A stretch of 44,255 bases of DNA from a virus. The position numbers were made by a program, and so were the translations under genes. Of the stretch, positions 5,524 through 44,214 are shown piece after piece. The stretch covers positions 1 to 44,255 of IMG/VR virus record IMGVR_UViG_3300009034_000077; one strand, 5' to 3'. Below the pieces are notes generated by a model that was not told the DNA's origin, did not search any database, and saw only the letters and a program-made list of their open reading frames with translations. Each line of letters starts with the position of its first letter. Position 1 is the first letter of the stretch.

Positions 5524-5526
5524 ATT

Positions 5527-23426: not shown

Positions 23427-23430
23427 GATA

Positions 23431-29533: not shown

Positions 29534-29812
29534 ATGGAAATATTATTATTTACGGACAATCAGGGAAATGAACATTTTTTGACCACAAATTCCCCGGCAT
29601 CACATTACGGTATCCCGGCATATCGTATTGAGGATGAGGATTGCGCTTTTGGCACAGATTATGGCCCCGCAGAATTTATACGATTTGCGGGGTTGCCCTT
29701 GTTGGCTGGTGGCGTGGTGGCATTTTGGGCGCGCATGCAGGGGCGGTCTAAACACGAAATGGAAGTTGCGCGACAGTTTTGCGCACAAAATCCAGATGGA
29801 CCACAAATTTAG
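29534..29812 (+). CDS. Hypothetical small early protein
   Basis: 92 residues with an excellent AAGGAG site in the repeated leader. The mid-part is hydrophobic (FAGLPLLAGGVVAFWARMQG). It ends PQI with the codon context CCACAAATTTAG, which is shared with the end of the 30489-30923 gene. First gene of the rightward operon. No family recognised. Confidence 0.55.
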   Translation: MEILLFTDNQGNEHFLTTNSPASHYGIPAYRIEDEDCAFGTDYGPAEFIRFAGLPLLAGGVVAFWARMQGRSKHEMEVARQFCAQNPDGPQI

Positions 29813-29843
29813 AAAAAAAATAGGCACAGAAAGGAGATAAGTT

Positions 29844-30101
29844 ATGGAATGTCAAACTTGTGGTCGAGCAATCGATCCTAACATCGGTGAGTGTCGATGG
29901 TCTGATTGCTCAGAAAACCTCATTACCTGTGCTATATGTGGTGCAAAAATGAGCGTCCACGACCAGGTGTGCACCACCTATTGGGGACGTGGGAGGTGGA
30001 GAAGAGTTTTGCGCGGAGCTCTCACCTCTGAGGGGGCAGGATTTACAGGTGAGTGCCTGTGTCCTGCTTGCTTTGAAAAGAGACAGAAAGGAGAAAAATG
30101 A
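29844..30101 (+). CDS. Small Cys-rich zinc-binding protein
   Basis: 85 residues with four Cys pairs: CQTC (3-6), CRWSDC (about 17-22), CAICG (about 29-32) and CLCPAC near the end. This suggests one or two zinc ribbons. Shine-Dalgarno AAGGAG precedes. Its ATGA overlap with the next gene implies coupling. The function, perhaps nucleic-acid binding or host-protein binding, is unknown. Confidence 0.6.
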   Translation: MECQTCGRAIDPNIGECRWSDCSENLITCAICGAKMSVHDQVCTTYWGRGRWRRVLRGALTSEGAGFTGECLCPACFEKRQKGEK

Positions 30102-30439
30102 TGGAAAAAATAAGAAAAAAAATAGGCACGGAGTGGTTTGTCCTCTGTGCCGAAACCGACGACTCCCAGCTTTGGGAGTCTATCGGGAGTTTTAGATTTT
30201 TTTCAAGAGTGTCAGAAAAGACTACAATTTTTTCTGACTGGCAAGATCTTTACAGGGGGGCCTCTAAGCTTTCCTGGCAAGGGGAACAGCTTCGCGAGCT
30301 CATAGCAATTCGCGAAGCAAAAAGAGAAGGAATTGCGCCGGAAGAATGGTTGACAAAAGTCCGGCGCAGGACAGAAGATCAGCTCCGGAAAAATCCAGAG
30401 TCGGTTTTTTTGGCTTATAGCGTCTTGCGCGACATGTAA
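30098..30439 (+). CDS. Hypothetical early protein
   Basis: 113 residues, charged, with a helical C-terminal half (LRELIAIREAKREGIAPEEW). It starts in an ATGATG with AAGGAG upstream. The 17-nt string at 30112-30128 (G, eight A, TAGGCAC core) repeats the one at 29811-29827, a trace of local duplication. Function unknown. Confidence 0.5.
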   Translation: MMEKIRKKIGTEWFVLCAETDDSQLWESIGSFRFFSRVSEKTTIFSDWQDLYRGASKLSWQGEQLRELIAIREAKREGIAPEEWLTKVRRRTEDQLRKNPESVFLAYSVLRDM

Positions 30440-30454
30440 GCCAGCCAGTCACCG

Positions 30455-30483
30455 CACCGCCCCACGGGGCACAGAAAGGAGAA
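30455..30483 (+). repeat. Repeated leader: hairpin plus Shine-Dalgarno, copy 2
   Basis: Identical over 29 nt to 29501-29529. AAGGAG at 30476-30481 serves ATG 30489. The hairpin GCCCCACGGGGC ends about 10 nt before it and could modulate translation or mark an RNA-processing site. Confidence 0.75.
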
Positions 30484-30488
30484 TGATT

Positions 30489-30923
30489 ATGGAAGCAATA
30501 CACACAATCACAATTACGGAGAAGGAAAAAATCCAAGAGTTTTTCCAGCTCGACCTAGATGCTCTTGAAACCCTGAAAACTCTGAAACATCCCACACTGG
30601 AGATCCACCTACACGCAGAAATGGATGCGCCTCATAATATTATTGCAGTAGGATATCAATTCGGGGAAGCGGGTCAGCTCGCAAATCAGCCCGAAGAGGA
30701 GGACGATTTGCGGGGAGTTTTCGAGTTTTTTTCAGGAAGAGATCTGCCTGCCTGTACGTTGGTGGGCATAGATGGTATTGAAATCCGGGCATATCCGGAT
30801 CGGATGTCATCCGGTTATAGAACATATGTGAGAAAGGCTCTCTGGAAAGAGGTACAAACGAAAGAAACGAATTTCGAAAAGGAGGGAGACTATTTAGGCG
30901 CCTGGAATATACCACAAATTTAG
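30489..30923 (+). CDS. Hypothetical early protein
   Basis: 144 residues from ATG 30489; the upstream ATG 30483 is too close to the Shine-Dalgarno. N-terminus helical (ITEKEKIQEFFQLDLDAL), then a basic C-terminal region (RMSSGYRTYVRKALWKE). It ends PQI like the 29534 gene. I recognise no domain. Confidence 0.5.
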   Translation: MEAIHTITITEKEKIQEFFQLDLDALETLKTLKHPTLEIHLHAEMDAPHNIIAVGYQFGEAGQLANQPEEEDDLRGVFEFFSGRDLPACTLVGIDGIEIRAYPDRMSSGYRTYVRKALWKEVQTKETNFEKEGDYLGAWNIPQI

Positions 30924-30946
30924 CAAATATGAAGGAGGAGCATGAC

Positions 30947-31177
30947 ATGCAAAAATATTATATAATGCCCAAGGATGCGCTTGGGCAAAGGATGGTAATT
31001 GATGGAAGACAAGGGCGTCCCATCAACATAGACGGAGTCCAAGAAATTGAATTGCCCAACGGAGATTATTTGACCGTAATTTCTAAGGGCAAAAAGTATC
31101 CAGCTCATAAAATTGCCCTGGCAGTTGCTCTTGGGCAAATTAAAAAAGATGATGTGAGAGGACAAGAAAGGAGGTAA
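30947..31177 (+). CDS. Hypothetical small protein
   Basis: 76 residues from ATG 30947; the earlier in-frame ATG 30929 lies upstream of the GGAGGAG site. Basic and beta-like (VIDGRQGRPINIDGVQEIEL), ending DVRGQERR. Followed after 4 bp by the next gene. Function unknown. Confidence 0.5.
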   Translation: MQKYYIMPKDALGQRMVIDGRQGRPINIDGVQEIELPNGDYLTVISKGKKYPAHKIALAVALGQIKKDDVRGQERR

Positions 31178-31181
31178 CACC

Positions 31182-31493
31182 ATGAACTTTTGCAACGCAT
31201 GTGGTCGCCCATTAGAGGGCGGTCATGAAATAGGAAGAGCTATGTTGTGCCGGACTTGTGAGCCGGACATTAGTGCAGAGGTTAAGAGATTGCATGAGCT
31301 TAGGAAGCCGGTTAATGCCATGGCCATAGCCAGGCAATATTTCCGGGATCATCACAGTTCAGGGGCATACACTCTGCGTGATATTCCTGCGGATCTCAAA
31401 AGCCGAGCTCAGCATCGCGCCCTCGATGAAAAAATTACATTTCGCGAATTGATTTTTAAAGCATTGGTGTATTATTTGGAGAATAAATCATGA
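31182..31493 (+). CDS. Zinc-finger protein with C-terminal ribbon-helix-helix-like region
   Basis: 103 residues. CNACG (4-8) and CRTCEPD (about 23-29) make a zinc knuckle. The C-terminal 40 residues (TLRDIPADLKSRAQHRALDE, then ITFRELIFKALVYYLENK) have the strand-helix-helix pattern of CopG/Arc-type DNA-binding proteins. Candidate regulator of the rightward or virion operons. Strong AAGGAGG upstream. Confidence 0.6.
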   Translation: MNFCNACGRPLEGGHEIGRAMLCRTCEPDISAEVKRLHELRKPVNAMAIARQYFRDHHSSGAYTLRDIPADLKSRAQHRALDEKITFRELIFKALVYYLENKS

Positions 31494-31639
31494 ACTGGAA
31501 AAAGTATGTATTATTTAGATATTGGCAATTACGGGAGAAAAAATGTCCCCCTAGACTCTCTTATCGATGTGGACTAAAAATGAAAAATCCATCAACATTT
31601 TTAAGTCAAATTTATAAAGAAACTAGGTTTTATGGATAG
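31490..31639 (+). CDS. Small basic ORF (49 aa)
   Basis: ATG 31490 overlaps the previous stop as ATGA and TAG is at 31637-31639. The product is very basic (MNWKKYVLFRYWQLREKKCP). Coupled start and tight spacing support translation. Function unknown. Confidence 0.45.
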   Translation: MNWKKYVLFRYWQLREKKCPPRLSYRCGLKMKNPSTFLSQIYKETRFYG

Positions 31640-31661
31640 CAAATGGAAGGAGGGTTGAATC

Positions 31662-32057
31662 ATGAAAATGGAAAAAGTTTTAGCTAGTGCTTGCCTGTGT
31701 GGAATTCCATGCCGTTGGCATGGTAAAAAATGTTATAAATGTCATGCCATTCGCACAATTGAAGATTCCGTTGAAATCATTCCCGTTTGTCCCGAAATGC
31801 TCGGGGGCTTGCCATGTCCACGGCCCCCCGTTAAAACGAAAAAAGGACGTGTGTATCAAACCGATCATAGCAGAATGTTCTATGGCCCCGACGTTACAGA
31901 TCGTTTTGAAAAGGGAGCTCAGAAAGTATTAAACATTGCCCGGGAAAATAATATCAATAAAGCATATCTTTTCAAATTATCGCCGAGTTGTGCCCCCAAT
32001 GGTATCACGGGACGCTTATTGCGGCAGCATGGTATTGATGTGATCCCTACATGGTGA
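31662..32057 (+). CDS. DUF523 / TudS-type 2-thiouracil desulfurase family protein
   Basis: 131 residues. SACLCG (Cys11), VCPEMLGGLPCPRPP (Cys43, Glu45), DVTDRFEKGA and SPSC (Cys110) match DUF523. Characterised members (TudS) carry a [4Fe-4S] cluster on three Cys residues and desulfurate 2-thiouracil. It is slightly shorter than typical family members. Start has a good GGAGG. Its last 42 nt overlap, convergently, the ParB/PAPS gene. A role in nucleoside salvage in the phage is inference. Confidence 0.8.
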   Translation: MKMEKVLASACLCGIPCRWHGKKCYKCHAIRTIEDSVEIIPVCPEMLGGLPCPRPPVKTKKGRVYQTDHSRMFYGPDVTDRFEKGAQKVLNIARENNINKAYLFKLSPSCAPNGITGRLLRQHGIDVIPTW

Positions 32058-33323
32058 TTTGTCCATATCTTGATTTAAAATTCCCTTCAATAAATTTTTT
32101 CGGCCTTTTGTATGTTTACCCCAACAAAAAGCTCCAAAGATCTTTTCCAATGTAATCAATTCGTGCCAAACATCCGAGTAATTGGCACGGATCGCTGCAT
32201 ATGCAATCGGTTTTTGTCCCGGGCATATACGACATGCTGTGCGCTGCAATCCATATCCATAACCTTCCCATATGGGGGCACCGACATCATTTATAATTTT
32301 TTCACAGCCGCCTTTTTTTGTAAAATATAATGGTTGGAAAAACAAATATTTTTCCATGCGATCAATTTTTTTAAATCGGCTTTTTTCAATTTTGCCCGAT
32401 TGTCCAGCCCGCTCTTGTGCCCGCCCGCCACGGATAATGACGATCTCTTTTTCATTATGTTCCATAAAATAATCATTTGACGTTTTATGTAAAATATCGT
32501 GACAATATGGTCCCACAAAATTAGGCCATTGACCCTTTTCCAAAAAAGCATCAATCATTCCCTTTTGGGATCTCAGAATTGTCAATTTGGTATCAATTGC
32601 TTCTGCAAATTGTCTTAGGAATAATGGAAATCCCACGAAATCAGCGCCCATCTCACAAAAACAAAGTTGTATTTCATGATCAGGGAAAAAATGTTTTGCC
32701 CATATGGCAGTGGCTGATGAATCCTTGCCGCCCGAAAATTCAATTAAAAATTTTTTGCCCTCCAATATTTGCCGTTCATTTTTGTGCGGTGCCAATTCAT
32801 TTAATGTAGAAATATCTTCCAGCTGATGGCCGAGTGCGATCCTTGCTTGTTTCTTTTTTTCCTTGGCTTGATTTTGCATTAATAAGTTATCAATGTCGTT
32901 ACCGTCAAAGCCAGTACCTATCAACAATTCTTCTCCACTTGCCGCCAAATCAGACAATACTTGTGCGAGTTGTTCTTCATTATATCCACCTAGTTCCACG
33001 AGTCGATTATCTGCCAAACTGTATGCCTCGCGTTCTTGATTGTTCTTAAATTGGTATTCCCGCACCGGTACAAGCCATGAATCTTTTTCGACGATAATCC
33101 CTTTTGGTGGTTTGGAGCCCGAAGTTTTCATTTGTTGCAAAGCATCCAACCGACCATGGCCAGCAACGAGCTTACCATTTTTCCCATCTATGATTAACGG
33201 TGCTACAAAACCAAAACGATCAATACTTTGATGGAGAGCTCCAAGATCATGATCTTTCGGATTCCGCTCCCAGCGTTTAATCTTCTCAAGTGGCATGTAT
33301 TCGATTTTAGATTTCATATTCAC
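32016..33323 (-). CDS. ParB-like nuclease domain fused to PAPS-reductase-type PP-loop domain
   Basis: 435 residues. Residues about 5-110 are a ParB/Srx-like domain (MPLEKIKRWERNPKDHD, GHGRLDAL at 55-62, DNRLVELGG). After a linker, residues about 190-400 form an adenine-nucleotide alpha-hydrolase domain with PP-loop SGGKDSS (197-203) and a Cys cluster (ACRICPG). Such domain pairs occur in phages and in DNA-modification loci, and the PP-loop enzymes usually adenylate or reduce a substrate. The substrate here is unknown. It is the last gene of the leftward cassette. Confidence 0.75.
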   Translation of the reverse strand: MNMKSKIEYMPLEKIKRWERNPKDHDLGALHQSIDRFGFVAPLIIDGKNGKLVAGHGRLDALQQMKTSGSKPPKGIIVEKDSWLVPVREYQFKNNQEREAYSLADNRLVELGGYNEEQLAQVLSDLAASGEELLIGTGFDGNDIDNLLMQNQAKEKKKQARIALGHQLEDISTLNELAPHKNERQILEGKKFLIEFSGGKDSSATAIWAKHFFPDHEIQLCFCEMGADFVGFPLFLRQFAEAIDTKLTILRSQKGMIDAFLEKGQWPNFVGPYCHDILHKTSNDYFMEHNEKEIVIIRGGRAQERAGQSGKIEKSRFKKIDRMEKYLFFQPLYFTKKGGCEKIINDVGAPIWEGYGYGLQRTACRICPGQKPIAYAAIRANYSDVWHELITLEKIFGAFCWGKHTKGRKNLLKGILNQDMDKSPCRDHINTMLPQ

Positions 33324-34218
33324 ACCATTCCATCATTTTTATAAACTTACCACGCTCAGGTTCTTCAATATCATTCATGATATTCGGATATATTTTTTGT
33401 TGAAATGATTCAATAGAATCAATATGTTTTCTCGTATTTTCTGTGATTTCCAAATTAAAATCATACCTGATATCTTCAATATCAGCTTCAGGATCGTCTA
33501 TAAAATATTCATAAAAAGTAATTTCTCCATTCCGGTTTTTATTCATCAAAAAAGTCATTCCGGAATCTACTAAATGTCGCCAAACACAGGCAGCTCGCGT
33601 TATTGCGTTCCATTTCGGCCATCGCTTGACATCTTCTCCATCAAGATACCAGGGAGTTTTAACTCCATTATCTATTGCCCAATCTATCATATAATTATTA
33701 CACCATTCATCCGTATACCAATCCCTTCCGATTGCTGAATTGACAACATCGTTACCATTGCGGATGATATGGATAAATCGACATCCTGGGAATATTCCTT
33801 GCGCCAATGGCATCAAAGCCTGGAATTCATTACTTTTGATTACAAAAAGTGGTCGTCTCAATTTCAAAAAAGCAATAGCATCATCTCTCCGATCTAAATA
33901 TTTTCGGGCGGCTATGACTTCATTTTCCATGTAATAATCACGCCAATACGTCCAATCTTCTGGATTATTATTTAAATGACGTCCCTGTACAATGGGCAAA
34001 AAATAATCCTCAAACAGGATGGAACGAAACCATATTGGATCAATGCTATCATATAACCATTTCATAATCGCAGGTTCAAAAAGATAATATACAGGTGACA
34101 TGCTACCTATGACCTTGCCCAGAATTGATGTACCGGAGCGGCCAACGCCCGTAATAATTAATACCCGATCTGTCAAAATTTCAGTGGCATCATTGCTTGT
34201 TGGTATTGTGTATTTCAT
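33307..34218 (-). CDS. Sulfotransferase family protein
   Basis: 303 residues from ATG 34218 (purine-rich site upstream; the frame can extend to 34275, inside the previous gene). ITGVGRSGTSILGK (22-35) is the 5'-phosphosulfate-binding loop; FIHIIRNGNDVVNSAIGRDW supplies the 3'-phosphate-binding Arg and Ser. It would transfer sulfate from PAPS to a hydroxyl of a sugar, lipid or protein. Beside sugar genes, a glycan substrate is likely. No membrane segment, so it is cytoplasmic. Confidence 0.75.
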   Translation of the reverse strand: MKYTIPTSNDATEILTDRVLIITGVGRSGTSILGKVIGSMSPVYYLFEPAIMKWLYDSIDPIWFRSILFEDYFLPIVQGRHLNNNPEDWTYWRDYYMENEVIAARKYLDRRDDAIAFLKLRRPLFVIKSNEFQALMPLAQGIFPGCRFIHIIRNGNDVVNSAIGRDWYTDEWCNNYMIDWAIDNGVKTPWYLDGEDVKRWPKWNAITRAACVWRHLVDSGMTFLMNKNRNGEITFYEYFIDDPEADIEDIRYDFNLEITENTRKHIDSIESFQQKIYPNIMNDIEEPERGKFIKMMEWCEYEI

Positions 34219-34249
34219 GTTTTCTTCTCTGGGCCTAAAAATAAATCCA

Positions 34250-34702
34250 CTAATCTCCGAATGCGGCAACGCCACTTTTTAATCTTCCATTAACCCAAAT
34301 CATTGTAGGTGCCCGACCTGATTTTTTAATAAATTTTAACCATTCATCATATGTACATGTCATTGAACCACATGCACTTATTTTATTATCAACCAACCAT
34401 TTGGCTAATTCATTTGGCATCTTAAAAACCGGCGACATTGGTGATCCTTCTGATGTCGTTTCCCATAATTGATATCCATCTCCATTGGGAGGTTGTTGGA
34501 ATGAAACAATGGGACAACCATAATCCGCAATTGCAAATTCCATAAGATGCGCATAATATCGACATAAATTGCATCGTTCACCACGATTTAATTTTTCAAA
34601 ATATCGGTCCATATTACTGCAAAGACTGAATGTGAAACCAGGCCATATTTCACCTAATGGCCAATCAAAATCTAATGGTACTCTTTTGATTTCTCTTCCC
34701 AT
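34250..34702 (-). CDS. Conserved phage hypothetical protein (MGREI-RVPLDFDWPL type)
   Basis: 150 residues starting MGREIKRVPLDFDWPLGEIW, a start I recognise from uncharacterised proteins of unrelated phages. Later it has a possible metal-binding CNLCRYYAH and GYQLWETTSEGSPMSPVFK. It overlaps the sulfotransferase frame and shows that phage-type genes are interleaved within the sugar cassette. Function unknown. Confidence 0.65.
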   Translation of the reverse strand: MGREIKRVPLDFDWPLGEIWPGFTFSLCSNMDRYFEKLNRGERCNLCRYYAHLMEFAIADYGCPIVSFQQPPNGDGYQLWETTSEGSPMSPVFKMPNELAKWLVDNKISACGSMTCTYDEWLKFIKKSGRAPTMIWVNGRLKSGVAAFGD

Positions 34703-34750
34703 TTTTTATATTCCTCCTTTATCATGTTAATTTTTTCCATATTACAAAAA

Positions 34751-35836
34751 TTATTTTATTTTTTCTTTTAATCTCCACGGCTTTTCCGGATGCGTTCCTG
34801 CTTTTAGTATTTTCCTGTTGACATGTTTATCAACGATTGACCAAAAGCGACTTTGAGTCATGTTAAAATATTCACAATATACATCCACATGCTCATGCGG
34901 GAAAATACCGTCAAGCTCACGCGCCAATTCCACACCGCGTTCCCGCGTCATCCTACCATATCGGATTTCAATAGAAGCATCCGCACTACATCGGCCAAAG
35001 CCATGCTTTATAAAGCATAAATAGGTATGTAAATGTTGTAATAAATCCTCATTTTGTGCGTAGTCTGTGAACGTTCCAATATTAGGCCCATCGTGGACTT
35101 TCATTCCGCATCGTTGCTTTGCAAAAATTGCATGCTTTTCAGGGTCCCAATCCTCGTATAGCGAAAACCATGTCACATATAGATATCTTAAATCTTCTTC
35201 TGATGGGACTTCCCACCAAGGTCCATATTTTGCCATATCTGATTGTCCCTCATAATAAATATCGACTAAAAATTCCTGGGACATTTTTTGCAATTTTGCT
35301 GTATCACTCCGGCCACCGTATTCAATTTCTCCCTGCTCCGCAAAACAAATCAATTGGATATTTATATCTTTGGCAAGTTTGCAAATAGCTGTACTGATAC
35401 CTGTCACAAAAGGCTGCTTTGGCATGCCACGTACAATAAAGCTATCCCGCGCAAACTGTCTATAATTTCCCGGATTCGGTGTAATGAGGATATTGTCAAA
35501 TCCAGTCGCAATGAAATTATTCCAATTTTCCCACCCAAGACGGGTTGGCATTGGATGTGCAAACGTAACGGTCAGGGGATGCATGCCGAGTTTTTCCTTG
35601 AATTGCATTGCGATGTAAGAAGAGTCCTTACCTCCGGATACAGGTATGATACAATCAAAAGATCCGTCTGATCGCCTGTATTTATCACATATGGCCTCCA
35701 ATACAGCCCATCGTTTTGGCCAATCAACACTTGTCTGTTTTAGAGTATGCCACTGACAAGCATTGCACACGCCATCCTCATTAAACTCAATCCGTGGCCG
35801 TGTATTCGGCATTAAACAGTTTTTGCACCAAAACAT
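34751..35836 (-). CDS. N-acetyl sugar amidotransferase (PseA/WbpG-like)
   Basis: 361 residues. N-terminal zinc ribbon CKNC (4-7) and CNAC (24-27), then PP-loop SGGKDSS (67-73), matching the N-acetyl sugar amidotransferase family that turns an acetamido group into an acetamidino group on nonulosonates or related sugars (PseA, WbpG). ATG 35836 overlaps the NeuB-like stop by 25 nt. Some family members use HisH/HisF-like ammonia-supplying partners, and none is present here. The sugar substrate is inferred from the neighbours. Confidence 0.8.
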   Translation of the reverse strand: MFWCKNCLMPNTRPRIEFNEDGVCNACQWHTLKQTSVDWPKRWAVLEAICDKYRRSDGSFDCIIPVSGGKDSSYIAMQFKEKLGMHPLTVTFAHPMPTRLGWENWNNFIATGFDNILITPNPGNYRQFARDSFIVRGMPKQPFVTGISTAICKLAKDINIQLICFAEQGEIEYGGRSDTAKLQKMSQEFLVDIYYEGQSDMAKYGPWWEVPSEEDLRYLYVTWFSLYEDWDPEKHAIFAKQRCGMKVHDGPNIGTFTDYAQNEDLLQHLHTYLCFIKHGFGRCSADASIEIRYGRMTRERGVELARELDGIFPHEHVDVYCEYFNMTQSRFWSIVDKHVNRKILKAGTHPEKPWRLKEKIK

Positions 35837-36687
35837 TTCATTTCCTCCCTTATTCTATCCCGCACTTCTATTTCTCGTGGCACAGGTCTTTTAATGCCAT
35901 CCCCCATTGCGTGTTCAACATTGCAAATCATGTTAACCATTGTGATTAATTCATTTAGTTCATACGATGCTTTGTGATCAGGCCCTTCCTGATCACGATC
36001 CATGGTAATGTGTACTTCAATCACAGAGGCTCCCATTGCAACTGCGGCAACGGGAATTTCGACGAGACCGCTATGGTCAGAATATCCCACGGGCAAATCA
36101 AACTCAAATTGTAACGATTCAATGCATCCCAAATTCACTTCACTGACTAATGTTGGATATGCAGTGACGCAATGCAATATTGTTGCATTTATTTTTGGAG
36201 GCACTCGTGCAATTGCTATATCCATTTGATTGCCAGCGTAGTAGCTAACATCTTTTGTCGTTTCAAGTGCATTTAATGTAGATAATGCTTTTTTAACTTC
36301 ACCTGAATTGCACATTCCAGTAGATAAAATAACATGCTCAGGATTTATTGATTTAATTTTCTCCAAATATGGATAATTCGTCACCATACCACTTGGAATT
36401 TTCCACCGTTTCAGTCTCAATTTTTCATTCAAAAAATCAATGCTTTCAAAATCAAATGCCGAGCACATCCATTCGAGATCATGACCCCAAGCATAACTTT
36501 GCAAATATGCCAATTGATTTTTAGTCAATCGCAAATGCTCAATTTCAGGGAATCGGTCTTTTGACCATGCTTGAAATTTCACGGCATCGACTTTTGCTTG
36601 AGCTGCAATTTCAATAAGCCGTTTTGCTTCGTCACAATTGCTATTGTGATTCACGCCAACTTCACTAATAATAAATGTTTTATTCAT
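35812..36687 (-). CDS. Nonulosonate synthase (NeuB/LegI/PseI family), SAF domain absent
   Basis: 291 residues from ATG 36687 (a TTG at 36702 is also in frame). FIISEVGVNHNSNCDEAKRL, AVKFQAW, HCVTAYPT (172-179), GYSDHSG (201-207), EVHIT (224-228) and GPDHKAS (235-241) are the TIM-barrel hallmarks of enzymes that condense phosphoenolpyruvate with a 2-acetamido-hexose. Typical members are about 335-350 residues because of a C-terminal SAF domain. This one stops at 291, just after KRPVPREIEV. Which nonulosonate it makes cannot be fixed from sequence alone. Confidence 0.85.
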   Translation of the reverse strand: MNKTFIISEVGVNHNSNCDEAKRLIEIAAQAKVDAVKFQAWSKDRFPEIEHLRLTKNQLAYLQSYAWGHDLEWMCSAFDFESIDFLNEKLRLKRWKIPSGMVTNYPYLEKIKSINPEHVILSTGMCNSGEVKKALSTLNALETTKDVSYYAGNQMDIAIARVPPKINATILHCVTAYPTLVSEVNLGCIESLQFEFDLPVGYSDHSGLVEIPVAAVAMGASVIEVHITMDRDQEGPDHKASYELNELITMVNMICNVEHAMGDGIKRPVPREIEVRDRIREEMKCFGAKTV

Positions 36688-37120
36688 TTTTATAGCTCGC
36701 AATCTGTTTCTCTATTGGCTCAAAGTTACTAATATATGCATCTGGCAATAAATCAATTGCATATGCTATATTATAACCTGGTAATATCACTGCTATTTTT
36801 GGCGCATGATCAACTAAAAATTGCCGACAATTGCCACAGGGGGAAACGATATCTATTTTCAAATCACCATTTTTAAAGGTCGCTGTGACGGCTCCAATCA
36901 TGATGAAATTTTTCTCTCCTTTTGACATCGCTTCCCCCATAGCAATTCTTTCAGCACATACTGAATAGTTACAACCTCGAATATTGACCGCAGAATATAC
37001 ATTACCATTTTCACACATCACAGCGCTACCAATTGTATGCTTTGTAATATGATAGCATCGTTTTAATGTTTCTCCTGCTACATGTACTAAATCTTTCAAT
37101 CTTATTTCATCATGATTCAT
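36680..37120 (-). CDS. Cytidine deaminase
   Basis: 146 residues from ATG 37120 (AAGGAG 9 nt upstream). CAE (55-57) within NYSVCAERIA, and SPCGNCRQ with Cys95 and Cys98, are the zinc ligands and catalytic Glu of the cytidine/deoxycytidine deaminase family. It converts cytidine to uridine. Its place between the dehydratase and the NeuB-like gene, in an operon that also spends CTP on CMP-sugar, suggests pyrimidine-pool adjustment; that link is inference. Confidence 0.85.
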   Translation of the reverse strand: MNHDEIRLKDLVHVAGETLKRCYHITKHTIGSAVMCENGNVYSAVNIRGCNYSVCAERIAMGEAMSKGEKNFIMIGAVTATFKNGDLKIDIVSPCGNCRQFLVDHAPKIAVILPGYNIAYAIDLLPDAYISNFEPIEKQIASYKNE

Positions 37121-37965
37121 GTCGAAAAACTCCTTACACAATTGCTATCTGACCGTAAAATAGTACCATCTGGCAAAATGATTTCCTCATGCAATTTCTC
37201 GCCTGGGCGCTTTCCAACAATCTCAAGTTCAGCCTCTGGATAAATCTGCTTTGCCAAATCATCAATTCGCATTGACATCATTTTTGGTGTAAAGACTTCC
37301 CCGCCCTTCATGCGATGAATGCAATCAATGATATAATCTGTCACATCTTCAAGCGTGATAAAAAATCGTGTCATATTTCGATCCGTGAGAGGTATTTGCT
37401 TTGCTTTTTCTGTTTTGAGTTGTCTAAAATATTCCACGACGCTACCATTTGAATTCCAAAAGTTACCGGACCGTACCACTGAGAAACGGGTACCATCCTT
37501 GCCCGAATAGACGTTAGCAGCGACAAATAAAAAATCGGCACAGAGTTTCGCTGCGCCATATAAATTGATGGGATTAACGGCCTTGTCAGTCGATACGGCA
37601 AGAACGCGTTTGACGTCACGTTCAAGAGATGCGCTGATCACATTTTCGGCCCCGTAAATATTCGTTTTTACCACTTCCGAAGGATTGTATTGACATTTGT
37701 CCACATGTTTGAGGGCTGCACAATGAATCACAATATCCACATTTTTAAATGCTTGATATAATCGGTCCTTATCCCGGACATCACCGATGAAGTAGCGGAC
37801 TTTTCTGTCTGGGTCCAGCAAAAATCGCTCCATCTCAACTTGCTTGTGTTCATTGCGACTAAAAACGATTACTTTTTTGGGATTGTGTTTGGTAATCAAC
37901 TTCTCGGTGAGCTTGTTACCCAAAGAGCCAGTGCCGCCAGTCACCAATATTGTTTGATTATTCAT
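37117..37965 (-). CDS. NAD-dependent nucleotide-sugar 4,6-dehydratase (PseB-like)
   Basis: 282 residues from ATG 37965 (GGAAAG upstream). Rossmann TGGTGSLG (9-16), then VSTDKAVNPINLYGAAK with Thr126-Asp127-Lys128 and Tyr136-x3-Lys140, the PseB/FlaA1-type signature, and GKRPGEKLHEE near the end. It would turn UDP-GlcNAc into a 4-keto-6-deoxy sugar, the first pathway step. Whether it is C5-inverting (PseB) or retaining decides between pseudaminic- and legionaminic-type products and cannot be read by eye. Confidence 0.85.
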   Translation of the reverse strand: MNNQTILVTGGTGSLGNKLTEKLITKHNPKKVIVFSRNEHKQVEMERFLLDPDRKVRYFIGDVRDKDRLYQAFKNVDIVIHCAALKHVDKCQYNPSEVVKTNIYGAENVISASLERDVKRVLAVSTDKAVNPINLYGAAKLCADFLFVAANVYSGKDGTRFSVVRSGNFWNSNGSVVEYFRQLKTEKAKQIPLTDRNMTRFFITLEDVTDYIIDCIHRMKGGEVFTPKMMSMRIDDLAKQIYPEAELEIVGKRPGEKLHEEIILPDGTILRSDSNCVRSFST

Positions 37966-38092
37966 TTTTTTTCTTTCCAATCTTTCCCACAACTCCGATA
38001 ATAAATAAAGCGATTATCGCAACGATTACGGCTTCCCCGAATCGCAAAAAATATTCAATCGGGATGCCGAAAAATGTCAAACCTTCGAACAT
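37958..38092 (-). CDS. Tiny single-TM membrane protein (44 aa)
   Basis: ATG 38092 follows AAGGA, and the TAA (37960-37958) overlaps the dehydratase start by 8 nt. One hydrophobic segment (about residues 20-36, AVIVAIIALFIIGVV) is followed by a basic tail (GKIGKKKNE). Short, good ribosome-binding site, tight junction. Function unknown. Confidence 0.55.
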   Translation of the reverse strand: MFEGLTFFGIPIEYFLRFGEAVIVAIIALFIIGVVGKIGKKKNE

Positions 38093-38150
38093 AATTCCTT
38101 AACCGATATATGCCATTCAAGTATGATTTTAAGGGTTCTGATGTCCCGCC

Positions 38151-38369
38151 TTAAATTAATGCTTTTTTAACAGCATCAAGCAAACACTGGACACACAATT
38201 CGATATCATCATCGTGCCACTTAATAATTTTAGCTATGAGTTCAAGCCTTATAGTTTTCTCTTGATAACTTATATAAATGTTTTTATGGAATCCTCTTTT
38301 ATAGAATTTTTCTATAATTTTTTCTTTGTTCACTGCTTTTCCACATATTTCACAAGATTTTTTAATCAT
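38151..38369 (-). CDS. Small zinc-finger protein
   Basis: 72 residues with CEICGK (6-11) and CVQC (about 59-62), a four-Cys zinc site. The start is 3 bp from the aminotransferase stop. Phage-type small protein inside the sugar operon. Its function, possibly host-factor or RNA binding, is unknown. Confidence 0.6.
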   Translation of the reverse strand: MIKKSCEICGKAVNKEKIIEKFYKRGFHKNIYISYQEKTIRLELIAKIIKWHDDDIELCVQCLLDAVKKALI

Positions 38370-38372
38370 AAT

Positions 38373-39470
38373 TTAGATCATCTTCTTTATTTTTTTACAC
38401 ACATACATAATATCTTTTTCAGTATTCAACGTAGATCTCGGCAGACATAATCCATGATTGTAGATATACCGTGCATTCGGATAAACATTTCTATTTTGGT
38501 ATGGTTTACTATCCGTCAATGGCCGAAATATTCGCCTTGTCGGTATCCAATGCTTATAAAGCTCTGCCTGCAACGATGATATATCTATATCTGGCGGAAA
38601 CAAACATACCGTAAACCACCATGACGGCTCCGAATCGGGTGTTGCTTCTTGGAATTTCACCAATCCAGCAAGTTCGTTGCGATAAATTTCATTAAATCGC
38701 CGTTGCTTGGCAAGAAAAGATTCAAGATTTTTAAGTTGTGCGAGTCCCAATGACGCATTCAGTGATGGCATTTTATAGTTGTAACCAATCGCATTATGCG
38801 TTCCGTCGTGATTTTTTGCCTGGACTGATAAATTTCTGATTTTATCAAGACTTTTTAGCCATCGACTGACAACAAGGCCACCACCCCCAGTCGTCATTAT
38901 TTTATTTCCATTGAATGAAAAACATCCTAAATCGCCCAATGTACCGGTATGCTTCCCCTTAAACTTCGCCCCCAAGCTCTCAGCAGCGTCCTCAATGCGA
39001 ATTCTCGGAAAATATGACATATCACATGGGTTGCCATATAAATGTACGCATATAAACGCCATAGTGCGCGGAGTGATAGCTTCTATTGCTTTTTGAGAAT
39101 CAATATTCCATGTTATGGGATCTATATCCACGAATATTGGCTTTGCGCCTATATAAGACACCGCATTTGCCGTCGCCACAAATGTCGTGACGGGCAATAT
39201 AACTTCATCCCCAGGTCCTACATCACACGCCAACAAAGCAAGATGTAGGGCCGATGTCCCAGAATTCACCGCCACGGCATCGGATACACCTAAATATTTT
39301 GCCATAGCTTGTTCGAATTCGTCTGTTATTGGACCAGCAGAAGAAACATAGCCCGTATCAAGGACATTGTTTATCAATTTCTTCGCATGTTTTATATTTG
39401 CAAAATCAAGATGGATTCTTCTTAATCGCATTTTTTCAAATTCTTCTTCTAATTCTTCTTTGGAAAGCAT
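38373..39470 (-). CDS. DegT/DnrJ/EryC1 aminotransferase (LegC/PseC-like)
   Basis: About 365 residues from ATG 39470; a TTG at 39485 is also in frame. SGTSALHLALLA, EDAAESLGAKF and CFSFNGNKIMTTGGGG (catalytic PLP Lys in NGNK, about residue 190) are diagnostic. It transfers an amino group from glutamate to the 4-keto sugar. The NGNKIxTTGGGG form is the one I associate with LegC-type enzymes. It lies between the NeuC-like epimerase and the dehydratase. Confidence 0.85.
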   Translation of the reverse strand: MLSKEELEEEFEKMRLRRIHLDFANIKHAKKLINNVLDTGYVSSAGPITDEFEQAMAKYLGVSDAVAVNSGTSALHLALLACDVGPGDEVILPVTTFVATANAVSYIGAKPIFVDIDPITWNIDSQKAIEAITPRTMAFICVHLYGNPCDMSYFPRIRIEDAAESLGAKFKGKHTGTLGDLGCFSFNGNKIMTTGGGGLVVSRWLKSLDKIRNLSVQAKNHDGTHNAIGYNYKMPSLNASLGLAQLKNLESFLAKQRRFNEIYRNELAGLVKFQEATPDSEPSWWFTVCLFPPDIDISSLQAELYKHWIPTRRIFRPLTDSKPYQNRNVYPNARYIYNHGLCLPRSTLNTEKDIMYVCKKIKKMI

Positions 39471-39471
39471 T

Positions 39472-40572
39472 TTATTTTTTATCAAAATAATATTTAATCT
39501 CTTTTATAATGCAGCCAGAGACATTCCCACCTCGATAAGGCATTCCTTTAATATTTTTCAGAGATTTTTGAAATTCTTCACTATATAAAACATCCAACGC
39601 AGCTTCAATACTTTGGGGAGTCCCTGGACAATCTAATATAGAATCAGCTTTTAACCGACCATCCTGTCTCATCCCAACATTGATGGTAGCGGTTCCGAGC
39701 GCTGGCGCTTCGTATATTCCGCAAGATGAATTTCCCACAATGGCAATGGACTCATTGAGCAATTCTAAAAATTCAGAACGTCTAATCGATGGCAAATAAA
39801 TTACAGTATCATTAGTTCGCGCTATATCTTCTAAGCATTGATTAATATACATCCCGCCACAATCAGCATTTGATCCGATCGCATAAATTTTTTCAAATGG
39901 TTCATAAAGTAAAACATTGGTTAAATAATGAAATTTGCGTTTGCTAGCTTCATAATCGACCGTTTCGGGATGAAACAATAAAATAATTTGCTTTTTATTT
40001 TTTGGATAAATCGGTTTTGGCAAATCTTGTAAACATAAACATCCAACATCAAATACTGTGTCTGAATCTTTGCCTAATTGAATCACTTTTTGCCGATATT
40101 GTTCATGTGCTGTAAAATGCAACTGACTCATGTGCGTAATCGAATGCCGATAAGCATCATCTAAAGAACCTTCTGTTGTTTCACCGCCATGAATGTGTGC
40201 AATTGGAATATGCATATTATATGCGGCAATGGTAGCTGCTAAAATTTCATAACGATCACCTGAAACGATAATCATATCTGGTTTAAGACGCTCATACAGT
40301 TCAGAAAATGAAATTAAAACAAGTCCCATAGATTTACAGGTTCCTATTACTGTATCAGATGAAATCAACGTCTCTATTTTTTCAAAAGGCGAATAACAAT
40401 GCGATTCGGTTTTTATAATTTCATTTTTTGTCATACCGAATTCAGGTGATAGATGAGATCCCGTGATAATAACTTTAAAATCAAAAGCAACATCAAATCC
40501 AATTGCTTTTGCTAAGGATTCAAGCAATCCCCATTCTGCGCGGGACCCTGTGACTATTGCGATTTTATTCAT
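39472..40572 (-). CDS. Hydrolysing UDP-sugar 2-epimerase (NeuC/LegG family)
   Basis: 366 residues. VSGDRYEILAATIAAYN, HIHGGETTEGSLDDAYRHSI and IVGNSSCGIYEAP match NeuC/LegG enzymes, which epimerise C2 and release UDP to give ManNAc or the 2,4-diacetamido-mannose precursor for the NeuB-type synthase. Using NeuC/LegG rather than PseG points toward a legionaminic- or neuraminic-type sugar. ATGA overlap with the upstream SDR. Confidence 0.88.
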   Translation of the reverse strand: MNKIAIVTGSRAEWGLLESLAKAIGFDVAFDFKVIITGSHLSPEFGMTKNEIIKTESHCYSPFEKIETLISSDTVIGTCKSMGLVLISFSELYERLKPDMIIVSGDRYEILAATIAAYNMHIPIAHIHGGETTEGSLDDAYRHSITHMSQLHFTAHEQYRQKVIQLGKDSDTVFDVGCLCLQDLPKPIYPKNKKQIILLFHPETVDYEASKRKFHYLTNVLLYEPFEKIYAIGSNADCGGMYINQCLEDIARTNDTVIYLPSIRRSEFLELLNESIAIVGNSSCGIYEAPALGTATINVGMRQDGRLKADSILDCPGTPQSIEAALDVLYSEEFQKSLKNIKGMPYRGGNVSGCIIKEIKYYFDKK

Positions 40573-41234
40573 ATCTTTGCCGTTATCCCCCCATCTACAA
40601 GCAGATTACATCCTGTTACATATCGAGCAGCATCGGACGCCAAAAATAAAACAGGTCCTACAATATCTTCTGGCAAGGCCATATGCCCAAGCGGCACTTT
40701 CTGACAATATTTCTCAATGAATTCTTTTGGCTGATTATCAACAACACCGCCAGGACTCACACAGACAGCCCTAATACCGTATTTGCCATATGTGCATGCA
40801 ATCCATTGGGTACCAGCAATCACGCCACCTTTTACGATTGCATATTTGAAGGGCATTATCATATCAGTATTGTCATATAAAGATTGATCAGGCCCCCGGA
40901 TTCCATAAATTGATGCAATATTGATAATGACACCACCACCACCATGTATTGCCATATGTGCTGCGATTGTTTCTGCACATGACATATAGCTGAATAAATG
41001 CTCCATATAATCTTTTGGATACGCTGTATTAACAAAGATGTCGATGTGTTTCATAATATTAATCACTTGATGTAAAGAACCAGGGGAGTGTGCATCAAGA
41101 TATAAATCGCCACCGGAGATGTCTCCATTGACAACGTTGCTACCAGCATCAATAAAACCTTGTATAATTGCCCTGCCAATTAAACCGGAACCACCGGCAA
41201 TGAGGACCGATTTGTTTTCTAAGTCATCATACAT
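40569..41234 (-). CDS. Short-chain dehydrogenase/reductase (PtmA-like position)
   Basis: 221 residues. Cofactor motif AGGSGLIGR (13-21), active-site Tyr-x3-Lys in FKYAIVKGG, and the C-terminal VLFLASDAARYVTGCNLLVDGG typical of classical SDRs. Similar SDRs sit beside cytidylyltransferases in flagellin nonulosonate loci (PtmA in Campylobacter), but its substrate there and here is not certain. It overlaps the acetyltransferase stop by 16 nt. Confidence 0.75.
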   Translation of the reverse strand: MYDDLENKSVLIAGGSGLIGRAIIQGFIDAGSNVVNGDISGGDLYLDAHSPGSLHQVINIMKHIDIFVNTAYPKDYMEHLFSYMSCAETIAAHMAIHGGGGVIINIASIYGIRGPDQSLYDNTDMIMPFKYAIVKGGVIAGTQWIACTYGKYGIRAVCVSPGGVVDNQPKEFIEKYCQKVPLGHMALPEDIVGPVLFLASDAARYVTGCNLLVDGGITAKI

Positions 41235-41629
41235 TTTCCATTCACGCCTTTAACCGTCGCAGGGATACCGTAATATATCGCATTGGCAGGCACATCCTTA
41301 TTTATAAAGCTCAGGGCCCCAATAATTGCATTTTCGCCAATCGTTATGCCTGGCATGATGACTGAATGTGCTCCAATTTTGCAATTTTTCTTCAAAATTA
41401 CGGGTCCAGCCTTATTATCAATTGTCGATTCGGTATAAATGGAAGTATGACTTCCAATTTGCACATTATTTTCAATCACGATTCCATTTTTTGCATTGAG
41501 ATAACAGAACGACCCGATATCAACATTTCTTCCTATAACTAACATATCGGCATGGTCGACTTTCCAATGCCAATGCGTTAATTCGCCGCTTTTTATTATT
41601 GGTTTTATCCATTTTTTGAATCTTCCCAT
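41219..41629 (-). CDS. Hexapeptide-repeat (left-handed beta-helix) acetyltransferase
   Basis: 136 residues from ATG 41629 (GGAG upstream). Repeated [IV]-G-x4 rungs (VIGRNVDIGSFCYLNAKNG, IENNVQIGSHTSIYTES, KIGAHSVIMPGITIGENAII) and a YYGIPATVKG C-terminus identify a trimeric LbH acyltransferase. It probably uses acetyl-CoA to acetylate the 4-amino sugar or the finished nonulosonate. It lacks the N-terminal domain of PglD/NeuD enzymes. Confidence 0.75.
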   Translation of the reverse strand: MGRFKKWIKPIIKSGELTHWHWKVDHADMLVIGRNVDIGSFCYLNAKNGIVIENNVQIGSHTSIYTESTIDNKAGPVILKKNCKIGAHSVIMPGITIGENAIIGALSFINKDVPANAIYYGIPATVKGVNGKCMMT

Positions 41630-41707
41630 AGCGATAGTACGCTCCAATCAATATTTCGGTCCCGTACTACCGCTTTTATTATTTTAAATTAATTAACCTA
41701 AAAAAGG

Positions 41708-41857
41708 TTATTGACATTTTTTGATATAATTAAATATCATATAAGATACTAGTATTACTAAACTTAACGAACTCAAAAATAAAATAATTTCAATTCCATA
41801 AAATGATAATAAATATAATAACCGTCGAAACCATCGACTATTAGTTATTTTGCCCAT
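41708..41857 (-). CDS. Small membrane protein (49 aa) overlapping the cytidylyltransferase end
   Basis: ATG 41857 lies inside the end of the NeuA-like gene in another frame (17-nt overlap); TAA is at 41710-41708. A basic N-terminus (SRWFRR) is followed by one long or two short hydrophobic segments (about 13-44). Positive-inside arrangement suggests insertion in the inner membrane. The remaining gap 41630-41707 is AT-rich with no further gene. Confidence 0.5.
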   Translation of the reverse strand: MGKITNSRWFRRLLYLLSFYGIEIILFLSSLSLVILVSYMIFNYIKKCQ

Positions 41858-42572
41858 AAAAATTATTCCAAAGATATTCAACAATTTGAAAATCTAATTT
41901 TGCATCAATATCGCAAAACGTTTCATCTGGCATCACATATAATTCAGTTTTTTCAGTAATTGGCGACTTATTTTTTTTGTTTGACAACCAACTATTTTCA
42001 TATACGTAAATTGAACAATTGAGATCGTAAGTATACGGCACATCCTGTCGTCGATAAGTATCTTTTGGAGATTGCTTGCATAATCTCACTTTGCCATTAA
42101 CCATTTCCACCATGTTAAAATATGGACTCCGACGGGATTTAACCACAGATACGACAGTATGCGGCATCTTGCGTTTGAACAAGTTGGCGCATGCTTCGAT
42201 ATCTTCTGTTGTCCGCAGGGGATTTGTGGCATCCAAATCAATGATGATTGAATATTTCTTTTTGGTTTTCTTTTCGGCTTCCATTAATGCGTCTCTGATA
42301 GCATCCAATTTGGGGGTAGTTTTAGCTGCTAGTTCCTTTGGCCGTTTGTGTGCGACATAAAAAGCAATTTTCCCATACTCCGGTTTTATTTGTTCTAAAA
42401 TTGCTGCATCGTCGGATGATAATATAATATCGCCTTTTCCCCATTGCATAGCTTGATCAATAGTCCATGCAATTAATGGTTTCCCGCGAAATGTTTTTAA
42501 ATGCTTCCCTGGCAAACCCTTGCTTCTACCTCTCGCGCAGATTGTGATTAGGATATTATCACTTTTCATCAT
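41841..42572 (-). CDS. CMP-nonulosonate cytidylyltransferase (NeuA/LegF/PtmB family)
   Basis: 243 residues. CARGRSKGLPGKHLKTF (12-28) is the CTP-binding motif, followed by LIAWTIDQA, SSDDAAIL, IIIDLDATNPLRTTEDIEAC and DIDAKLDFQIVEYL near the end, where the Asp pair binds metal. It activates the sugar as a CMP-glycoside, the last cytoplasmic step before a transferase. It starts with ATGATG after the GAAGGGA site. Confidence 0.88.
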   Translation of the reverse strand: MMKSDNILITICARGRSKGLPGKHLKTFRGKPLIAWTIDQAMQWGKGDIILSSDDAAILEQIKPEYGKIAFYVAHKRPKELAAKTTPKLDAIRDALMEAEKKTKKKYSIIIDLDATNPLRTTEDIEACANLFKRKMPHTVVSVVKSRRSPYFNMVEMVNGKVRLCKQSPKDTYRRQDVPYTYDLNCSIYVYENSWLSNKKNKSPITEKTELYVMPDETFCDIDAKLDFQIVEYLWNNFYGQNN

Positions 42573-42876
42573 TATTCCCTTCTGGATTATTGTTGCAAAC
42601 CGGCAATATCAATCTATTTCCATAATGTTCAACACGGATATTATTATTATGGTTTATATCTAGTTCTAAATTATCTTTTTTATATTTAAAGATGAATTCT
42701 TCCATGATCGTAGTCTGTTTTATTTGCGTCTCAATTACTTTTTGACGCCAGATTTCCCTTTCCTCACTATCCCTTGCGTACATCAAACATTCTTTGTAAC
42801 TGGAAAGCTCAAAACCAATAGTAATCCATTCGCCAACATCTTCAGCGTCCATTTTAATTTTAAGAATTTCTACCAT
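42559..42876 (-). CDS. Hypothetical protein
   Basis: 105 residues, helical and charged (RDSEEREIWRQKVIETQIKQ), with good AAAGGAGAGG upstream. It overlaps the cytidylyltransferase start by 14 nt. The middle Trp/Ile-rich part (GEWITIGFELSSYKECL) is not a domain I know. Likely phage-type cargo in the sugar operon. Confidence 0.55.
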   Translation of the reverse strand: MVEILKIKMDAEDVGEWITIGFELSSYKECLMYARDSEEREIWRQKVIETQIKQTTIMEEFIFKYKKDNLELDINHNNNIRVEHYGNRLILPVCNNNPEGNNDEK

Positions 42877-42944
42877 TTTTCCTCTCCTTTTCCAGTTGTG
42901 AAAATTCTTTCATCTGACTATATGTTAATTTCGGTTTGAAAGCA

Positions 42945-43313
42945 TCAGGATAAGTGCATATCAGATATTACTTTTTTAATTTTTTCCTTCCCTTCCTCCA
43001 TTGCTGCAATAAAGGCATCAATGTGGTCTTCATTCAAAAAAAGTATTTCATGAAAAACCTCAACTCTACCAATAAGGAGCATTTTTATTGGTGTGATAAT
43101 TCGTTCCCAAATCTGACCGTACCAAGTATTTGCATAATATGATGCCCATTGGAGATTTGCAGACATTCGCATCATGAGAATTCCCAACTCGTCGGTTTCT
43201 AACTCCAATCGCACATCATGTTCATTATCCGTGCAGTCGCATGCCACTCGGTAAAAAATAGAATCATCGAATTCATGCGTTTTCATGACTCGATAGTTAA
43301 TTGGATTGTTCAT
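42945..43313 (-). CDS. Hypothetical protein
   Basis: 122 residues from ATG 43313, preceded by GGAAGGA; a TTG at 43334 is in frame but upstream of that site. The N-terminal half is strand-like (DSIFYRVACDCTDNEHDVRL), the C-terminal half helical (DAFIAAMEEGKEKIKKVISD). Similar layouts occur in uncharacterised phage early genes. Function unknown. Confidence 0.55.
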   Translation of the reverse strand: MNNPINYRVMKTHEFDDSIFYRVACDCTDNEHDVRLELETDELGILMMRMSANLQWASYYANTWYGQIWERIITPIKMLLIGRVEVFHEILFLNEDHIDAFIAAMEEGKEKIKKVISDMHLS

Positions 43314-44214
43314 ATTGGTCTTCCTTCCATTCAATCACTTTCCGAAACATATCGCTTGCGTCGTGGATATTGTTCATCATGCGATTGTCATTGATGTTAT
43401 TAAAAAAATATTGTAATTGTTTGAGATATATGTCACTTGCTACCATATTTGACGTTTTATCATAGTGATGAATATCCCCGTATAAATTTATGATATAGCT
43501 ACGTTGCTGATCCGTACTGAGCTCAAACCAGCGCAATTGCAATTTGCTGAATAAATCAAGATGGATATTACTCGTTATTCCATATTCATGCTCAATAATA
43601 ATATCTGCATAATCTTCTGCATCGTATGTAACGTCACTTTTTTTGCCAAATATACCAGTTATTCGCTCAATATTCCCACATAGAAATGTAGCAAGATCTA
43701 TCTCATGGGATAAATCCAATATGGCACCACCACCTTGATTCTTATAAGTTGAATAGGTGCTGTAATATCGCCATTCGGGTAAATATGAACGACATACGAA
43801 TTGAGCATGGTATATTCTTTCGGTAGCAATTTTTTTTATCAAATCCGTAATGGCTGGTATGTGTCTGAGTGGATAAGCAATATACGTGGTGAGATGCTTA
43901 CAGGTCAATAATAAATCATTCAATAATTCCAAATTATGACCTATTGGCTTTTCGATGAATAGTTTAATTCCGCGCCGTGCACATTGTAGGGCAGTTTGCA
44001 TATGCAAATAAGTTGGATTGGTGATGAAAGCTACATCCGGCTTGATTTTGTCAACTTCTTGCCAGTTATGAATTTCCGTGACATTATCAAAAGATTCGTA
44101 TCGTGCATGACCCTGACCACTACGATAAGCATAAATATCGAAATCGAAATGCTTTTGTAGTAATTTTAAATGACGTTTACCTATTTGACCTAAACCAAAA
44201 AATATGATTTTCAT
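43297..44214 (-). CDS. Gfo/Idh/MocA-family oxidoreductase
   Basis: 305 residues. Rossmann FGLGQIGKRHL (6-16), then FITNPTYLHMQTAL and the hallmark FIEKPIGHNLE, with a C-terminal GGGAILDLSHEIDLATFL active-site strand. It would oxidise or reduce a nucleotide-sugar ring hydroxyl or keto group using NAD(P). First gene of the cassette. Its ATG comes immediately after the stop of the ORF that may cross the window ends. Genes of this family often accompany NeuA/LegF genes; the precise reaction is unknown. Confidence 0.8.
   Translation of the reverse strand: MKIIFFGLGQIGKRHLKLLQKHFDFDIYAYRSGQGHARYESFDNVTEIHNWQEVDKIKPDVAFITNPTYLHMQTALQCARRGIKLFIEKPIGHNLELLNDLLLTCKHLTTYIAYPLRHIPAITDLIKKIATERIYHAQFVCRSYLPEWRYYSTYSTYKNQGGGAILDLSHEIDLATFLCGNIERITGIFGKKSDVTYDAEDYADIIIEHEYGITSNIHLDLFSKLQLRWFELSTDQQRSYIINLYGDIHHYDKTSNMVASDIYLKQLQYFFNNINDNRMMNNIHDASDMFRKVIEWKEDQYEQSN

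Follow-up and report, generated by a model that had tools for sequence, protein, structure and literature searches.

Phages that modify the nonulosonates (NulOs, sialic-like acids) made by their hosts are already known, as are glycosylated virions and the presence of neuB in viromes, where it is among the genes listed (PMC3877843), and virion glycosylation has a precedent in mycobacteriophages, at least as Freeman et al. 2023 is cited in PMC12619734. For Acinetobacter baumannii, an epimer of legionaminic acid has been proposed to arise from cytidine monophosphate (CMP)-activated legionaminic acid (CMP-Leg) by added enzymes (PMC5595891). No description of a phage whose virion operon includes an entire nonulosonate pathway was found in the literature searched. 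The 44,255-nucleotide stretch analysed here (positions 1 to 44,255 of the IMG/VR viral record IMGVR_UViG_3300009034_000077, a linear fragment of 44,256 bases; hereafter, the window) carries, in a leftward run from 44214 to 32016, the genes of a near-complete nonulosonate pathway in a phage, as a reading made from the sequence alone (hereafter, the sequence-only reading) had claimed, and profile searches recovered every enzyme family that it had named in its place within the run. What is new here is that a complete cassette is conserved within a virion operon, as seen in relatives of this phage, and comes with a candidate for the transferase.

The run consists of 16 reading frames, all of them open and most of them overlapping or lying within a few bases of the next:

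43297-44214, minus strand: Gfo/Idh/MocA oxidoreductase, PtmF-like, the first cassette gene (PF01408 9.8e-13, PF22725; nearest relative the counterpart in viral contig G008, support 0.91)
42945-43334, minus strand: small orphan gene, 129 aa (without a Pfam match or a relative in the loci searched)
42559-42876, minus strand: small orphan gene, 105 aa (likewise without a Pfam match or a relative in the loci searched)
41841-42572, minus strand: CMP-nonulosonate synthetase, NeuA/PseF/LegF-type (PF02348 5.2e-17; PseF model 86.5 bits, below the cut-off of 205.7)
41219-41647, minus strand: short hexapeptide acetyltransferase, NeuD/PglD-like, in the LegH position (PF00132 2.5e-15; TIGR03570 69 bits, below cut-off)
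40569-41234, minus strand: short-chain dehydrogenase (SDR), PtmA-like (PF13561 2.9e-21; PRK09186 158 bits and PtmA 97 bits, both below cut-off)
39472-40572, minus strand: hydrolysing nucleotide-sugar 2-epimerase, NeuC/LegG (TIGR03568 355.8 bits, above the cut-off of 235.9)
38373-39485, minus strand: pyridoxal phosphate-dependent sugar aminotransferase, LegC-like (PF01041 1.2e-91; TIGR04181 318 bits against 201 for the PseC model; IEDAAES and FNGNKI motifs)
38151-38369, minus strand: small orphan gene, 72 aa, Cys-rich (without a Pfam match)
37117-37992, minus strand: UDP-N-acetylglucosamine (UDP-GlcNAc) 4,6-dehydratase, PseB-type (inverting family), with a short C-terminus (TIGR03589 379 bits; 2gn4 3.5e-89)
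36680-37141, minus strand: cytidine deaminase-like gene (PF00383 1e-10), seen in the window only and not found in the relatives searched
35812-36702, minus strand: NeuB-type nonulosonate synthase without the SAF (antifreeze-like) domain (PF03102 1.3e-62)
34751-35836, minus strand: N-acetyl sugar amidotransferase, WbuX/PseA-like (TIGR03573 304 bits, above the cut-off of 203; CxxC pairs and SGGKDS motif)
34250-34702, minus strand: small gene, 150 aa (without a Pfam match)
33307-34275, minus strand: sulfotransferase-like gene (PF13469 8.5e-06, 26.6 bits against the Pfam cut-off of 27)
32016-33323, minus strand: fusion of ParB-like and 3'-phosphoadenosine 5'-phosphosulfate (PAPS)-reductase-like parts, at the end of the run (phrog_620 2.9e-33, phrog_424 1.7e-23)

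The core of a NulO pathway, i.e., a NeuB-family enzyme (PF03102), a CMP-NulO synthetase (PF02348) and a 2-epimerase (TIGR03568), is thus present, and the cassette proteins carry the motifs expected of their respective families. In the comparison with NulO profiles that the sequence-only reading had proposed, NeuC/LegG and WbuX scored over their cut-offs and PF03102 and PF02348 were matched, while several other proteins fell below theirs: TIGR04181 is the best model for the aminotransferase, at 318 bits for a cut-off of 420, and the dehydratase reaches 379 bits for a PseB cut-off of 407.75, with the C-terminal part of the model unmatched and the DK/Y motif kept. The best solved relative of the epimerase is a GDP/UDP-diacetylbacillosamine 2-epimerase (1.9e-66), and the nearest solved structures to the synthetase are CMP-N-acetylneuraminic acid synthetases. 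The sulfotransferase-like gene finds its main support in being kept in the phage group, with relatives in the loci L100, L101, G063 and G064, whereas the tie of the ParB/PAPS-reductase-like fusion to the sugar pathway is uncertain; one viral relative of this fusion, at 51% identity, was seen (L014).

The window is that of a phage. Terminase, portal and capsid genes had been reported in it by the sequence-only reading, and PHROGs agree, adding protease and tape measure: a leftward late operon, from 28912 to about 8568, holds the terminase small and large subunits, portal, protease, major capsid and tape measure, and is separated from the second leftward run, which is the cassette's, by a rightward block of small genes (29534-32057). 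No more than 41 bases of the contig follow the cassette, and on that side its setting has to be judged from relatives. Three of these (G008, G063 and G064) have phage genes to its left and right, which the window itself shows on one side only. The 115-kb G008 (IMGVR_UViG_3300009285_002342) carries ten of the cassette enzymes in the same order and on the same strand at 26254-11242, with phage genes to either side of them, those on one side being replication-like (named from a reading of translated sequences, not by profile search), and its structural proteins are 27-68% identical to those of the window. The cassette of G063 (24.9 kb) and that of G064 (54.9 kb) are each flanked by the terminase large subunit and the portal, on one strand and in nearly the same order, and in L101 (10.9 kb) WbuX, LegC, PseB, NeuB and the sulfotransferase are directly followed by portal, protease and capsid. 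Most of the relatives are uncultured contigs and fragments, and those among viral contigs were recovered with alignments as queries; scans of viral contigs with the window LegG, NeuB or WbuX as single proteins found no relative.

The window and G008 are sisters in all eight enzyme trees computed (LegG, LegC, CMP synthetase, PtmF, PtmA, WbuX, PseB and NeuB; FastTree support 0.87-0.99), from which G063 and G064, found later, are excluded, and the median identity of the cassette proteins (42%) is close to that of the structural ones (45%), the gene order being conserved across phages at mostly 40-57% identity. The plain reading of these results would be that the cassette and the phage backbone share a common descent and that the cassette therefore travels with the phage. 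Parts of the structural region were also met in two fragments of one other metagenome (99.8% nucleotide identity over 7.4 kb, 97-100% protein identity), so this phage was assembled more than once, though not across the cassette. Relatives of the window portal are spread over many hosts, with many of the best coming from Clostridia. Two further observations concern the relatives: a related 40-kb phage (L004 / G003, IMGVR 3300033145_001793) shares the head module and has integrase-like and repressor-like genes and no NeuB, and the cassette of G064 holds, at 43780-46120, two additional genes resembling E1 alpha/beta dehydrogenase subunits, with a NeuD-like acetyltransferase beside them.

A way for the sugar to leave its CMP carrier may be provided within the late operon itself, by a gene lying near the capsid gene and outside the interval considered by the sequence-only reading:

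19985-20842, minus strand: candidate CMP-nonulosonate transferase with a predicted GT42/Maf-like fold (Foldseek of two models; co-occurrence with NeuB and CMP synthetase genes)
22065-23441, minus strand: major capsid protein, a possible acceptor (phrog_10 1.1e-73)
24730-26709, minus strand: portal protein, for context (phrog_12 2.6e-123)
26888-28450, minus strand: terminase large subunit, for context (phrog_9 2.5e-177)

The candidate has a 58% identical counterpart in G008, and G063 and G064 have the conserved gene as well. When it and a distant homologue were modelled with AlphaFold (modest mean predicted local distance difference test scores of 61 and 68), both models gave the GT42 sialyltransferase CstII as the best Foldseek match (E-values of 1.8e-4 and 1.5e-4), a structural aligner placed Cst-I/CstII at a Z-score of about 10 and the Maf NulO transferase 5mu5 at 9.3, and a sequence profile search ranked GT42 proteins first to eighth of 177,635 PDB sequences, but at weak E-values of 0.03-0.2. 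At least 142 viral contigs were picked up when the candidate family alone served as query. NeuB is encoded in 16 of the 32 longer ones, as compared with a window NeuB match in three of 50,697 isolate phage records, figures that differ in sampling and search method and have no matched base rate, the former not being a clean statistic in itself, as it was in phages with NeuB that the family first drew attention and some of the contigs are related or near-duplicate; about a dozen others among 80 loci of the family have a CMP-sugar-synthetase-like gene. This co-occurrence seems to be a better argument for a transferase role than the fold.

The synthase of the cassette departs from canonical NeuB. 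No match to PF08666 (SAF) was found in it, the protein stopping where that domain would start, whereas Pfam detected SAF in bacterial control NeuBs, and it has Met at the position of Glu134 (in what we take to be the meningococcal numbering). Among 187 aligned NeuB sequences, those with a tail of SAF length have Glu or Asp at this position in 104 of 105 cases, and the tail-less ones, the window's included, have another residue in 78 of 82 (tails being called by length, with Pfam agreeing on ten examples), and the pairing of SAF loss with so consistent a change looks like a functional subtype. The tail-less groups fall in several places of a FastTree tree whose deep support is weak, and most of the viral set belongs to a single marine clade of 69, so that these are not 80 independent events. 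NeuB is common in viral contigs (at least 565 confirmed stretches), and the form lacking both SAF and the partner Glu is common in phages and rare in bacteria; only three of the clear NeuB frames in 40 bacterial genomes are short (under about 305 codons), and these make SAF-less NeuB not exclusively viral. The idea that a small orphan gene of the cassette is a detached SAF domain found no support (no Pfam match; the 72-aa gene is Cys-rich).

Other viral loci with SAF-less NeuB were seen in passing. A 484-kb uncultured huge phage (L011, LR756508.1 314778-331521) has GT29 sialyltransferase-family proteins beside it (7247-7879 and 10642-11322; PF00777 1.6e-26 and 2.2e-30); a marine cyanophage-like locus (L012, MH319754.1 79482-96249) has, at 5358-8816, a PtmA-like SDR, a nucleotidyltransferase, a LegC-like aminotransferase and a SAF-less NeuB in a row; and marine viral contigs (L106, L109, L111, L119, L130, L154 and others) have PseB, aminotransferase, SAF-bearing NeuB and CMP synthetase, plus a second, SAF-less NeuB.

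As to the chemistry, the enzymes appear to form a hybrid of a PseB-type inverting dehydratase with later enzymes of Leg/Neu type. The dehydratase is not of LegB type (TIGR04180 72 bits for a cut-off of 475, as against 379 for the PseB model), that of L100 and L101 likewise fitting PseB and not LegB, while PseC and PseI are outscored by LegC (318 to 201) and NeuB (272 to 147). We infer from these families that UDP-GlcNAc would be dehydrated with inversion at C5, that the LegC-like enzyme would install a 4-amino group to be acetylated by the hexapeptide enzyme, that the LegG enzyme would take off UDP and invert C2, and that the SAF-less NeuB would join the hexose to phosphoenolpyruvate; the amidotransferase would convert an N-acyl group to an acetamidino group, and the synthetase would activate the product to a CMP-nonulosonate with one amidino substituent. 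The PtmA- and PtmF-like enzymes and the sulfotransferase may provide the precursor or tailor the sugar. Since the C5 of the hexose becomes the C8 of the NulO, retention of the inversion would, going by known stereochemistry, lead to an amidino-bearing acid of 8-epilegionaminic type; as enzymes of the PseB type may fail to retain the inversion, a legionaminic-type acid is also possible.

The location of the cassette within the particle-building block of the relatives, together with the candidate transferase there, suggests that the sugar is used by these phages to coat either their own particles or the host. The reading that we put first, and to which we would give about even chances, is that of a phage-borne, lineage-inherited CMP-nonulosonate pathway whose sugar is moved onto the virion late: CMP-NulO would be made late in infection, and the sugar would go onto one of the virion proteins (capsid, decoration or tail), most likely via the 19985-20842 protein. 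Of the two uses that the sequence-only reading had offered, that on the phage's own particle is the better supported one, because the gene for the GT42/Maf-fold candidate is conserved close to that of the capsid, whereas lysogeny with superinfection exclusion has drawn no specific support, as no integrase was noticed among the window frames and the cassette of the relatives is in the late head-gene operon.

Several points weigh against a virion destination or against a working pathway. In the window itself, the cassette is parted from the head genes by the rightward block; PseB, LegC, NeuB, PseF and PtmA profile scores are below the curated cut-offs; and the window NeuB lacks the SAF domain that supplies Arg314, which is essential in the meningococcal enzyme, R314A being dead (PMC6795526). 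As for the candidate transferase, thiamine pyrophosphokinase and HPPK reach an equal Z-score in the second model, and with related folds tied in this way, the superfamily assignment is credible for the models at hand, whereas function is not given by the fold. Furthermore, the protein had no Pfam match at E-values up to 1, CST-I (PF06002) included, hhalign of its family to CstII gave a 34% probability over 40 columns, its counterpart of the catalytic His loop of CstII looks shorter in the model, and a homologue occurs in a Microcystis phage without a NeuB match.

The main rival, which we regard as doubtful though deserving of serious attention, is that the sugar alters the host surface (capsule, lipopolysaccharide, flagellin or S-layer) via host or unseen phage transferases, leading to receptor masking or phage exclusion. 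It is favoured by the bacterial locus L017, which has the same gene set beside polysaccharide export genes, by the Acinetobacter capsule nonulosonates changed by prophages (PMC12053666), and by the resemblance of the candidate's predicted fold to Maf, a flagellin NulO transferase, but is at odds with the late head-gene position of the cassette in G063, G064 and L101, with the window's lack of a noticed integrase, and with the fact that no polysaccharide export or polymerase genes were seen within the cassette. An improbable explanation is that the enzymes are degenerate leftovers of a dead pathway; PseB, the SDR, the acetyltransferase and NeuB are indeed shorter than their cellular relatives, but the open frames, kept motifs and gene order conserved across such diverged phages speak otherwise, as does the frequency of SAF-less NeuB in many phages with its consistent change at the Glu134 position. 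That the sugar or its CMP form serves DNA or nucleotide modification of the phage is less probable again, despite the ParB/PAPS-reductase-like fusion and the cytidine deaminase being in the same run and phage DNA glycosylation being known (going by references in PMC12619734). Neither of these two genes was found in the cassette-carrying relatives. CMP-NulO donors, to our knowledge, serve glycans and proteins, not DNA. Finally, that the cassette is host DNA from the edge of a prophage, or the product of a chimeric assembly, deserves hardly any credence; the linear fragment ending so soon after it might speak for this, but the idea is rejected on the evidence of the cassette-carrying phage relatives. 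The bacterial chromosome joined within the cassette, which the sequence-only reading had named as a finding that would refute it, is contradicted by four other viral contigs with the cassette in phage DNA, three with phage genes on both sides, and cassette codon usage resembles that of the structural genes (r = 0.93).

The remainder of the window holds a few features of separate interest. A 2-thiouracil desulfurase (DUF523) family gene at 31662-32057 ends the rightward block and overlaps the end of the leftward run, and several small rightward genes (29534-31493) share a repeat, of the form CACAGAAAGGAGA, in the sequence upstream of them. A holin of the gene-transfer-agent 3TM family lies at 2897-3358 (PF11351 7.8e-21). 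The large tail-region protein at 5527-8571 has an Asp-box/BNR propeller (PF13088 2.8e-13), a repeat type also found in sialidases; a sialidase reading of the protein has this propeller match as its sole support.

If the virion reading holds, the use of sialic-like sugars by phages (shielding, adsorption, immune recognition) becomes directly testable, glycochemistry would gain a novel family of transferases and a compact type of NeuB, and phages would turn out to be able to keep a carbohydrate pathway of about ten genes stably among their core traits. The broader claim, which we hold tentatively and at somewhat less than even chances, is that a widespread group of tailed phages makes a sialic-like sugar de novo and attaches it to its own particles as these are assembled, with a new late-gene GT42/Maf-related transferase family, a SAF-independent NeuB class, and possibly a new nonulosonate of the hybrid route (8-epilegionaminic type, amidinated, perhaps sulfated).

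Among described systems, the Campylobacter-type legionaminic (leg/ptm) clusters, such as that of the Sphingomonadaceae plasmid CP099622 (L017; legB, legC, neuC, neuB, acetyltransferase, nucleotidyltransferase, cytidylyltransferase, oxidoreductase and Gfo/Idh), share LegC, LegG, NeuB/LegI, the acetyltransferase, the CMP synthetase, the PtmA-like SDR and the PtmF-like Gfo/Idh with the cassette, whereas the phage set has a PseB-type enzyme for LegB, no PtmE nucleotidyltransferase and a SAF-less NeuB, adds the amidotransferase and sulfotransferase, and sits among phage genes. With the pseudaminic pathway (PseB-C-H-G-I-F) it shares the PseB-type inverting dehydratase family, and PseF is the best-scoring model for its CMP synthetase, but its aminotransferase, epimerase and synthase are of Leg/Neu type, and PseG was not seen in it. 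The 8-epilegionaminic/acinetaminic modules of A. baumannii (PMC5595891) are likewise Leg-related enzyme sets for epimers of legionaminic acid, although the inversion in the phage would come from the first dehydratase and not after CMP-Leg. The candidate transferase shares a predicted fold and a short motif region with GT42 CstII/Cst-I and Maf, but its family has neither a significant sequence match nor a Pfam model match to them and lies in virion operons. The mycobacteriophages of Freeman et al. 2023 have sugar on capsid and tail proteins, the glycans being other ones and no de novo nonulosonate pathway being reported for them in what PMC12619734 relates. EpaA/EpaB and the prophage acetyltransferases of A. 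baumannii (PMC12053666, PMC6586298) are also phage genes acting on nonulosonates; these, however, modify a sugar made by the host, whereas the present phage appears to encode the whole CMP-sugar pathway itself.

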